From positions 62,001 through 126,000 of the forward strand of contig JACPFU010000034.1 of assembly GCA_016182785.1 (NCBI GenBank): 64,000 nucleotides of DNA, read 5' to 3'. Positions 40,284 through 45,699 of the stretch are shown one piece after another (position 1 is the stretch's first letter; each line of letters begins with the position of its first letter). The DNA comes from Lysobacterales bacterium (lineage in GTDB: Bacteria > Pseudomonadota > Gammaproteobacteria > Xanthomonadales > Ahniellaceae). Position numbers and translations under genes: made by a program. The notes under the pieces were generated by a model. It was not told the origin of the DNA and did not search any database. It saw only the letters and a program-made list of their open reading frames with translations.

Positions 40284-40321
40284 CAAAACGCGAAACCCCC
40301 GCTGCCTTTCGGAGCGGGGGT
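40284..40321 (-). terminator. Attenuator terminator upstream of ilvM
   Basis: On the minus strand, ACCCCCGCT-N9-AGCGGGGGT is a perfect 9-bp stem (40295-40303 with 40313-40321), followed by a TTTCGCGTTTT tail. Its 5' arm includes CCCGCTCCG (40310-40318), fully complementary to CGGAGCGGG inside the leader ORF (40373-40381). This allows a competing antiterminator. Confidence 0.85.
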
Positions 40322-40355
40322 CTTGGTGTGGGTCCTGATTCTTGGTGTTATCGCA

Positions 40356-40511
40356 TCAGGTCACGCACGCATCCCGCTCCGGTGAGGGCGTAATGAGTAC
40401 GAGTACGAGTACGAGCGCAACGAGCCGGCGCGCCGACGCGATGCAGGCACGCGCCAGCGAAGCCGGGGCGGTGTGCGTGCGAGTCGCGTGGATGGCGGAA
40501 CGATTGATCAT
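40356..40511 (-). CDS. Internal ilv leader peptide (attenuation control, ilvM-ilvE-ilvA)
   Basis: A 51-codon ORF with control run LVALVLVLVLI (residues 30-40) followed by [11 protein letters not shown] and stop. Scarcity of charged Leu, Val or Ile tRNA should stall the ribosome there and leave CGGAGCGGG free to pair with the terminator arm. Plentiful supply lets the ribosome cover that segment and termination follows. The start codon is 7 nt after a -10 box, so the mRNA is probably leaderless. The C-terminal [10 protein letters not shown] tail is shared with the ilvD leader, showing duplication of the cassette. (GAGTAC)3 repeats at 40395-40412 encode the Leu-Val pairs. Confidence 0.85.
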   Translation of the reverse strand: MINRSAIHATRTHTAPASLARACIASARRLVALVLVLVLITPSPERDACVT

Positions 40512-43414: not shown

Positions 43415-45058
43415 CTAGGGACTGGTGATCGCCCCCTTCGATGCCGATCCGACCATGCGCGCGTACTTCGCGAGCACGCCGCGGGTCGCGCGTGGCGGCA
43501 GCGGTTCGGGGCGACGCGCGGACAGATCGGCGAGGCAGTCGAGACGGCGCGCGTCGACGTCGATGACGATGGTGTCGCCATCGGCAATCGCCGCGATCGG
43601 CCCGCCGCGTGCCGCTTCCGGCGCGACATGGCCGACCATCAGGCCGTGCGTGGCGCCGCTGAAGCGGCCGTCGGTGATCAGCGCGACCTCGGCGCCGAGG
43701 CCGCGGCCCATCAGCGCCGCGGTGACCGCCAGCATCTCGGGCATGCCTGGCGCACCGGCGGGACCTTCGTGGCGGATCACCACGACATCACCAGCGCGGA
43801 TTGCGCCCGCCTGCACCGCCGCGAACGCCGCCGGCTCGCCGTCGAAGACGCGTGCCGGTCCCTCGAAGCGCATGCGGCCGTGGCCGGCGAGCTTCACCAC
43901 GCAACCTTCCGGGGCCAGCGAGCCGTGCAGGATCGCGAAGCCGCCGCGCGGCTTCAGCGGCTGGCTCAGCGGATACACCACCGGTTCCGGCTGTGCGCCG
44001 AGTTCGATGTCGGCGAGCAAGGCCAGCATCGAGTCGCCCTCGATGGTCGGGTGGTCCTCGATCACGCCACCCTGCATCAGCATCTGCGCGACGCGCGTGG
44101 TGCCTCCGGCCGCGGTCAGTTCGATCGCGGTGTAGCGGCCACCGGGTTTCAGGTCGGCGATCACCGGAGTGACCGCGGCGATCGCGTCGAAGTCGTCGAT
44201 CGCGAGCGGCACCTCGGCCTCGTGCGCGATCGCGAGCAGGTGCAGCACGGCGTTGGTCGAGCCGGCGGTCGCGGCGACCATGCGTGCGGCATTGCGAAAC
44301 GCGGCCGGCGTCAGCGCCTGGCGCGGATGGAAGCCGCGACGCAGGCATTCCATCACCAGGCGGCCGCAGTCCTCACCGGCGCGGGCGCGATCGACATGGA
44401 TCGCCGGCAAGTCATTCGCGCCGAGCGGCGACAGCCCGAGCATGGTCATCACCATCGCCATCGTGTTCGCGGTGAACTGGCCGCCGCAGGCGCCGGCACC
44501 GGGGCAGGCATCCTTCTCGACCGCGAGCAGTTCGGCGTCGTCGATGCGCCCGGCCGAATGTGCGCCGACCGCCTCGAACACTTCCTGGATGGTGATGTGC
44601 TGGCCGTGGTGCACGCCATGCGCGATCGAGCCGCCGTACAGCACCACCGTCGGGATGTTCATGCGTGCTGCGGCCATCGCCGCCGCCGGAATGGTCTTGT
44701 CGCAGCCGCACAGGATCACCATCGCATCGAGGCTGTGACCGTTGACGGCGAGTTCGATCGAGTCGGCGATCCAGTCGCGCGACACCAGCGAGGCGCGCAT
44801 GCCGGCGGTGCCCATCGCGATGCCGTCGGTGACGACGATGGTGTTGAACTCGATCGCGGTGCCGCCATTCGCCTCGATGCCGCGGCGCACGTGCTGGGCA
44901 GCAGCGCGCAGGGTGAAGTTGCACGGCGACACGTCCGACCAGGAATGCACGACGGCGACGAAGGGCTTGGCGATGGCCGCATCGTCGCGCCCGGTGGCGC
45001 GCAACATGGCGCGGGCGGGGGCGTGGTCGGGTCCGTGCTTGATGGCATTGCTACGCAT
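43415..45058 (-). CDS. ilvD: Dihydroxy-acid dehydratase
   Basis: A 547-aa iron-sulfur dehydratase, third common step of branched-chain synthesis. Cluster-binding cysteines are in [14 protein letters not shown] (about 113-121) and [16 protein letters not shown] (about 184-199). The C-terminal barrel shows [14 protein letters not shown] and [11 protein letters not shown] with the catalytic Ser. This is the shorter form of the family (E. coli IlvD is 616 aa). It is the first gene of the ilv cluster, 100 nt downstream of the first leader peptide. Confidence 0.96.
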
Positions 45059-45091: not shown

Positions 45092-45133
45092 GAAAACACG
45101 AAACCCCCGCGTCCTTTCGGAGCGGGGGTTTCG
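45092..45133 (-). terminator. Attenuator terminator upstream of ilvD
   Basis: On the minus strand, CGAAACCCCCGC-N11-GCGGGGGTTTCG is a perfect 12-bp stem (45099-45110 with 45122-45133), with TGTTTTC just after. CCCGCTCCG within it (45118-45126) is complementary to CGGAGCGGG in the leader ORF (45176-45184), which allows an exclusive antiterminator. Confidence 0.88.
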
Positions 45134-45158
45134 GTGGAGTCCTGATTCTTGGTCTAGG

Positions 45159-45305
45159 TCAGGTCAAGCACGCATCCCGCTCCGGTGAGGGCGTAATGAG
45201 TACTACGAGGGCAAGCTTGGCAATCGACCCGTGCATCGGCCAGCGCAGCGCGATCGGCAGCGAGCCGATGGTGCATGCAATCTGGTGGGCGGCGTGGTTG
45301 ATCAT
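45159..45305 (-). CDS. ilvD leader peptide (attenuation control)
   Basis: A 48-codon ORF with control run LALVVLI (residues 31-37), then [11 protein letters not shown] and stop 25 nt before the terminator stem. Further isleucines and leucines lie upstream ([12 protein letters not shown]). The start is 7 nt after the -10 box, so no 5' untranslated region is expected. The design matches the internal leader at 40356-40511: same start context MIN, same C-terminal tail, same antiterminator pairing. It should make ilvDCG expression rise when charged branched-chain tRNAs are scarce. Confidence 0.85.
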
Positions 45306-45312
45306 GGCCCCG

Positions 45313-45342
45313 ACGCTAAGGGCGAAGTTCTGGGCTTGTCAA
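45313..45342 (-). promoter_or_regulatory. ilvDCG promoter
   Basis: On the minus strand, TTGACA (45337-45342), 18 nt, TAGCGT (45313-45318), then 7 nt to the leader ATG. The 134-nt stretch to the divergent leuA promoter holds a 14-bp palindrome ATGGCA-CA-TGCCAT (45444-45457), a possible site for a shared regulator. Confidence 0.82.
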
Positions 45343-45476: not shown

Positions 45477-45506
45477 TTGACAGCTCGCGAGAGCGCATGC
45501 GAGCTT
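45477..45506 (+). promoter_or_regulatory. leuACDB promoter
   Basis: TTGACA (45477-45482), 18 nt, GAGCTT (45501-45506), then 6 nt to the leader ATG at 45513. The -35 is perfect. The -10 is poor by consensus but aligns with TAGCTT and TAGCGT of the two ilv promoters. Confidence 0.72.
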
Positions 45507-45512
45507 CGGCCC

Positions 45513-45638
45513 ATGTTCACCGCACTGCACCATGCTCGGAAACCGACGCGCTGCCCGGCGCGAGTGGTGCTGCGCGTGGTACTTCCCGGCCTGCTTCTTA
45601 TTCCGCCGACAGCGCGGGTAGGTGCAGCGTCGAGCTAG
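45513..45638 (+). CDS. leuL: leuA leader peptide (attenuation control)
   Basis: A 41-codon ORF whose middle is the control run RVVLRVVLPGLLLI (about residues 17-30), rich in Leu and Val. The tail PPTARVGAASS ends 27 nt before the terminator. GCGCGGG (45612-45618) in the tail codons can pair with CCCGCGC (45669-45675) in the terminator arm. Stalling at the Leu codons would therefore leave it free to prevent termination. The start lies 6 nt after the -10 box, implying a leaderless mRNA. The peptide is unrelated in sequence to the ilv leaders beyond this logic. Confidence 0.82.
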   Translation: MFTALHHARKPTRCPARVVLRVVLPGLLLIPPTARVGAASS

Positions 45639-45665
45639 AACAACAGCCACGATACGAATCACCAG

Positions 45666-45699
45666 AACCCCGCGCCGGCAACGACGCGGGGTTTTTTTT
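45666..45699 (+). terminator. Attenuator terminator upstream of leuA
   Basis: AACCCCGCG-N10-CGCGGGGTT is a perfect 9-bp stem (45666-45674 with 45685-45693) followed by eight T residues (45692-45699). It is the clearest intrinsic terminator in the window, yet it stands 135 nt upstream of leuA, as expected for attenuation. Confidence 0.92.

Follow-up and report, generated by a model that had tools for sequence, protein, structure and literature searches.

The window, which is the whole stretch of 64,000 nucleotides that was analysed, carries an ilv cluster on its minus strand. Three of its genes are presumably ilvD, ilvC and ilvG, as judged from familiar protein families together with homology searches. 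The order along the minus strand is a predicted promoter, a leader ORF, a terminator, ilvD (from 45058), ilvC and ilvG. The features of the ilvD leader locus are as follows.

45337..45342, minus strand: -35 box TTGACA of the predicted ilvD promoter, 37 nt upstream of the leader ATG, an offset shared with relatives.
45313..45318, minus strand: -10-like hexamer TAGCGT, with an 18-nt spacer, 7 nt upstream of the leader ATG.
45159..45305, minus strand: ilvD leader peptide ORF of 48 amino acids plus stop (ATG at 45305, stop at 45161-45159).
45195..45215, minus strand: control codons L31 to I37 (CTT GCC CTC GTA GTA CTC ATT).
45189..45204, minus strand: segment 1 (AGTACTCAT plus CGCCC), control codons predicted to pair with segment 2.
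45176..45184, minus strand: segment 2, the putative antiterminator CGGAGCGGG, in codons P41 to D44; the predicted 1:2 pairing reaches 45167.
45118..45126, minus strand: segment 3, CCCGCTCCG, within the 5' arm of the terminator.
45100..45132, minus strand: predicted intrinsic terminator hairpin (3:4), followed by TGTTTT at 45098-45093.
43415..45058, minus strand: ilvD, named by homology, the first gene of ilvD-ilvC-ilvG.

The U-run of the ilvD terminator (45098-45093) is broken. A small stem, CCTGA...TCAGG at 45163-45139 on the minus strand, lies around and after the leader stop. It occurs in both ilv leaders of the window and looks partly kept in three relatives (G001, G002 and G004). No Rfam family reached its gathering score within the window, and the leaders gave sub-threshold matches only. 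The three leader peptides of the window matched no Pfam family at E values up to 10, PF08046 (IlvGEDA_leader) included.

The other two leaders in the window lie before ilvM and, on the opposite strand, before leuA.

40356..40511, minus strand: paralogous second leader ORF, upstream of ilvM; its own TTGACA is at 40548-40543.
40373..40381, minus strand: antiterminator CGGAGCGGG of the ilvM leader.
40294..40322, minus strand: terminator of the ilvM leader, with the paired arm bases at 40318-40310.
45513..45638, plus strand: divergent leuA leader ORF (MFTALHHARKPTRCPARVVLRVVLPGLLLIPPTARVGAASS), with TTGACA at 45477-45482.
45612..45618, plus strand: antiterminator GCGCGGG in the codons of the leuA leader, complementary to CCCGCGC at 45669-45675.
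45665..45694, plus strand: terminator before leuA.

The ilvD and ilvM leaders are paralogous DNA, with 75% identity over 287 bp, promoter region included. The stretch from CTCATTACG to GATGCGTG is identical in both.

The original prediction was that nine bases of the ilvD leader's PERD codons are complementary to the terminator. The complementarity of CGGAGCGGG (45184-45176) and CCCGCTCCG (45126-45118) is as claimed in bases and places, base for base. CGGAGCGGG runs from the end of the Pro41 codon through Glu42 and Arg43 to the first base of Asp44. When the ORF was dinucleotide-shuffled, 3 of 2000 sequences could form an unbroken run of nine or more Watson-Crick pairs with the 5' arm and loop of the terminator; among synonymous recodings, by the same criterion, it was 10 of 2000. 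The nine-base complementarity is beyond chance.

Covariance model R1 was built from 19 leaders and contained no E. coli sequence. Of 299 genomes sampled from the order Xanthomonadales it matched 239, and it also picked up ilvD leaders in records with the titles Lysobacter and Luteimonas. The 122 leaders examined comprised 121 from the order and E. coli ilvL. They came from 29 R1-search loci and 90 fetched stretches, to which E. coli ilvL and two leaders of the window (ilvM and leuA) were added. They are the best-scoring matches, with weak or diverged leaders under-represented, and some of them helped to build R1. The downstream gene was leuA in 56, ilvD in 32, ilvC in 28, ilvG in 4 and ilvM in 2.

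No attenuator terminator was found at about a dozen of 30 ilvD loci. At some of these ilvD seems to follow another gene directly. One ilvD locus (L008) is without upstream sequence. Leader-like ORFs were seen upstream of ilvD at L025 (G055), L026 (G036), L029 (G043) and L031. The ORFs of L025, L026 and L029 have Val/Leu runs and complementary stretches, and their hairpins are without a clear U-run. These three are possibly diverged attenuators.

Leader tail and terminator arm share an unbroken run of 7-10 Watson-Crick pairs in 107 of the 122 leaders. The remaining 15 had five or six, with a few picks off the expected place. A first automatic alignment (A1) misplaced the antiterminator in distant leaders, so the counts were taken from anchored sequences and from a family alignment (A2). 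Anchoring on CGGG/CCCG alone left 120 of the 122 leaders usable, two being without the core. The four pairs next to the anchor were Watson-Crick in 105, 95, 101 and 94 of these 120, with a mean of 3.29 out of 4 formed compared to 0.88-1.75 with the partner slid. Pair 2 was T-A in 79 leaders and A-T in 15, and pair 3 was G-C in 91 and T-A in 10. Across 39 distinct sets of family, gene and pair, 96 of 156 positions were paired compared to 82.8 ± 3.4 after shuffling, a value reached in 2 of 10,000 shuffles, in a statistic that ignores relatedness among leaders. Pair 4 had no covariation (5299 of 10,000 shuffles), and leaders of family f7 had little pairing past the CGGG core. The anchor rule is post hoc, having replaced an earlier one after the rows were inspected. 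The earlier rule, which took the last CCCG of the arm and the first CGGG of the tail, anchored at wrong sites, and its figures were weaker: among 62 distinct cases, 91 of 186 positions were paired compared to 78.2 ± 5.5 after shuffling, a value reached in 132 of 10,000 shuffles.

The window's own family comprises 11 leaders (alignment A2). Here 92.9% of the 2:3 cells were paired compared to at most 61.6% when slid, and for 3:4 the values were 92.2% and at most 58.4%. A variable 2:3 pair was AU in five leaders and UA in five, with one break. Pair 39-104 is broken in G003, a member of this family, with A opposite A. Looked at in relatives, as had been suggested from the start, the nine-base helix is kept by two-sided base changes.

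Folding was carried out with and without a ribosome footprint. The ribosome was taken to cover 15 nt beyond the first P-site base. With the A site stalled at L31, L33, V35, L36 or I37 the full 9-bp antiterminator formed (-25.0 to -27.5 kcal/mol). A stall at T38 shortened it (-16.9 kcal/mol), and with the ribosome at codon 40 or later it was gone. At a stall on Ile37 the first free base is 45184, the first base of segment 2. The claim that a ribosome stalled on the control codons leaves this segment free thus agreed with the folding for Leu31 to Ile37, and the effect was lost three codons past Ile37. The companion claim, that a ribosome at the stop covers the segment, held in part. The stop codon starts 14 nt downstream of the segment, and with a footprint of about 15 nt either side such a ribosome would cover about the last half of segment 2. 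Free-energy folding with the complete hairpin always prefers the terminator, so the switch must be kinetic. With no ribosome and the 3' arm not yet made, the minimum-energy fold was 2:3, not 1:2.

Counted from the first base of the last Ile codon, the antiterminator begins 13 nt on in the window and 12 to 14 nt on in 16 of 32 ilvD leaders. The distance was 12 nt in 46 of 55 leuA leaders and 15 nt in 16 of 27 ilvC leaders. The stop lies one nucleotide after CGGG in 51 of the 55 anchored leuA leaders. An antiterminator made of the leader's own codons, the core of the original prediction, is well supported by covariation, footprint folding and geometry.

AGTACTCAT and CGCCC (45204-45189) are able to pair with the antiterminator plus the following bases, to 45167. 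In A2, 85.1% of the 1:2 cells were paired compared to at most 55.2% when slid, and none of 500 shuffles matched this paired share. Three pairs had two-sided changes, one of them being AU in four leaders and CG in four. Consensus 1:2-like helices were also obtained for leuA leaders of family f12, ilvC leaders of f2 and ilvD leaders of f9. Their paired share was 73.9 to 81.6% of cells, in structures derived from the same sequences and biased towards themselves. The helix covaried in f2 (5 of 500 shuffles) and was without clear covariation in f12 (306 of 500) and f9 (233 of 500). For the window's family only, the classic 1:2/2:3/3:4 scheme is supported by the leader sequences. The I to IV segment scheme is given in PMC1183508, and PMC1262725 describes patterns in multiple interactions as conserved in proteobacterial attenuators.

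The ilvD leader of the window is very probably a ribosome-mediated transcription attenuator like that of E. coli ilvGMEDA. The features of the trp/ilv type found here are a Leu/Val/Ile codon cluster in the leader ORF and an intrinsic terminator before the first gene. By sequence and folding, 2:3 is exclusive with 3:4 and is freed by a ribosome on the control codons. In the window's family a 1:2 helix would hold segment 2. The parts, their pairings and their conservation are apparent at the level of sequence and covariation. We infer stalling, termination, the response to amino acids and the transcription start. The leader RNA would have three competing helices, namely 1:2 (control codons with the codons after them), the 2:3 antiterminator and the 3:4 terminator. 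Under a shortage of Leu-, Val- or Ile-tRNA, a ribosome would stall between Leu31 and Ile37 and mask segment 1. Segment 2 would then be free, 2:3 would form and RNA polymerase would enter ilvD-ilvC-ilvG. When the tRNAs are charged, the ribosome would move over segment 2 and 3:4 would terminate transcription. Without translation, segment 2 could be held by 1:2. The window would hold two more modules of this kind, namely the duplicate in front of ilvM, which has a promoter of its own, and the leuA leader on the opposite strand.

Three other explanations were weighed against this attenuator. The original prediction was of a reduced design with only two alternative helices and no 1:2 helix. Duplex tests at first seemed to favour such a purely two-helix scheme, the order-wide test giving a mean z of 0.01 for 1:2 over 120 leaders compared to -1.92 for 2:3. 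This test is insensitive because GC-rich leaders hold many competing sites. Over the whole order the general duplex tests gave no signal for 1:2 or a weak one. In one of them a leader's own parts had an energy of -23.4; exchanging the downstream part changed it to -22.3 (Wilcoxon p 0.0009), and exchanging the upstream part to -22.7 (p 0.05). The two-helix scheme was dropped for the window's family on the 1:2 covariation, the hairpin with two-sided changes in the window's family being conserved. The energies of the similar helix in f2, f9 and f12 are large, which also counts against it, and we consider the reduced design improbable. The ORF would be incidental in the case of a simple intrinsic terminator or of an RNA switch that works without ribosomes, such as a riboswitch or a protein-bound leader. 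That no known attenuator family is recorded by Rfam in the window would fit such a reading, but the Leu/Val/Ile codon run is present throughout the leaders, all 122 examined leaders precede Leu/Ile/Val genes and there was no riboswitch match. It is very hard to reconcile with these leaders.

The tail of the peptide could also be conserved for the peptide itself, through nascent-chain arrest or a trans-acting peptide, with the complementarity as a by-product. The tail is nearly alike in both ilv leaders of the window, and its conservation between them had been part of the original argument. The similarity is real but stems from duplication, so the shared tail is not independent evidence. The same stretch of RNA encodes PERD in the window, PCG or RCG in G006 to G009, GAG in leuA and ilvC leaders and GSGY in family f9. 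As the frames differ among relatives, and the tails with them, it is the RNA that is conserved and not the tail peptide. The RNA pairing covaries, which also argues against a peptide function. Peptide-level selection on the tail was rejected on the frame differences, and this explanation has almost no likelihood.

The attenuator proposed here resembles that of E. coli ilvGMEDA. E. coli ilvL reads ATT ATT ATC CCA CCG TGC GGG GCT before GACCCCCGCACCGAAAGGTCCGGGGG. It also has a Leu/Val/Ile codon run, and its antiterminator GTGCGGGG lies in leader codons and pairs with CCCCGCAC in the CCCCCGCACCGAAAGG terminator. R1 detected E. coli ilvL at an E value of 5.5e-9. The original prediction had set the window's leader apart from classic operons. 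E. coli ilvL shares the layout, so for ilv the contrast was mistaken. The antiterminator inside the leader codons is real, and the design is the classic ilv one rather than a simpler alternative. In contrast to the window's leaders, E. coli ilvL has no TTGACA box 35-38 nt from its ATG. It matches PF08046 at 4.2e-17 whereas the window peptides do not, and its antiterminator begins 8 nt from the first base of the last Ile codon compared to 13 in the window.

Earlier work on branched-chain amino acid (BCAA) attenuators is reportedly that of Vitreschak and others from 2004, and may include Xanthomonas. In the account of PMC6123439 the E. coli BCAA operon is controlled by attenuation. The same paper cites earlier work in which BCAA genes of various Gram-negative species were found to be preceded by leader peptides and terminators. 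These putative attenuators are alike to those of the window in having a leader peptide and a terminator before BCAA genes.

In 119 leaders codon use was counted over the twelve codons that end with the last control codon. Leu was CTC or CTT in 554 of 609 cases, Val was GTA in 194 of 284 and Ile was ATT in 183 of 202. In six genes of the window Val is GTA at 1 of 228 codons and Ile is ATT at 8 of 192. GTA and ATT thus dominate the control codons though they are rare in the window's genes. Isoacceptor starvation and the 1:2 pairing are possible causes of this bias.

A TTGACA-like box was found 35-38 nt before an in-frame leader ATG in 118 of the 122 leaders, 110 of them matching at six of six positions. 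Among 1633 control ATGs none had such a box at six of six and 32 had one at five or six. Picking the best in-frame ATG favours this offset somewhat, not to the degree seen. The spans from the -35 box to the leader ATG are 45342-45305 (ilvD) and 40548-40509 (ilvM) on the minus strand and 45477-45515 (leuA) on the plus strand. With the -10-like hexamer chosen at a spacer of 16 to 18, the ATG lay 6 to 8 nt beyond it in 115 of 120 leaders. A Shine-Dalgarno-like core preceded 2 of 118 leader ATGs compared to 23 of 36 first structural genes. From the promoter position and the missing Shine-Dalgarno sites, leaderless leader mRNAs are predicted across the order. The ilvD leader ATG of the window has no Shine-Dalgarno site before it. 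Judged by the promoter position, it probably lies at or beside the predicted transcription start and is translated without such a site.

Textbook attenuation models assume ordinary initiation. Leaderless attenuators are already known elsewhere (PMC11857589, PMC7298713). The ilvBNC attenuator of Corynebacterium glutamicum is described in PMC11857589 as having a leaderless mRNA, terminator, antiterminator and antiantiterminator hairpins, and the codons CUU and GUA. It is likened here by description, not sequence, and differs in coming from an actinobacterium. The trpL attenuator RNA of Sinorhizobium meliloti begins at the ATG of the leader ORF according to PMC7298713, and differs in controlling trpE(G) through Trp codons. 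No description of leaderless BCAA attenuators in Xanthomonadales was found in the literature, a weak absence as subscription papers lay mostly outside the search.

It seems likely that the ilvD, ilvC, ilvG, ilvM and leuA attenuators of the order combine a leaderless peptide start with shared tuning of codons, segment 1 and antiterminator. The promoter would be locked 35-38 nt before the ATG, with no ribosome-binding site. One short RNA would serve as rare control codons and as segment 1, with the antiterminator about 12-15 nt on. Codon choice, ribosome footprint and RNA pairing would be tuned together, and leaderless initiation would set when the first ribosome meets RNA polymerase. The predicted leaderless leader peptides, occurring order-wide, are the part worth the time of specialists. 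The many natural variants within the order would allow leaderless translation, rare control codons and RNA pairing to be studied jointly.

A third DNA match in the window's own genome (L003, C30) had no Leu/Val/Ile-run leader and no terminator, and was taken as chance. Among the operons searched with R1 and located by tblastn, the ilvM copy of the leader was found only in G000 and G001, which belong to one genus. In G004, G007 and G009 ilvM is present without a leader copy, and the G002 sequence stops before ilvM. The duplicated promoter-attenuator module lies at about 40548-40285 on the minus strand of the window, between ilvG and ilvM inside the ilv cluster. Transcripts from ilvD would pass two attenuators in series.
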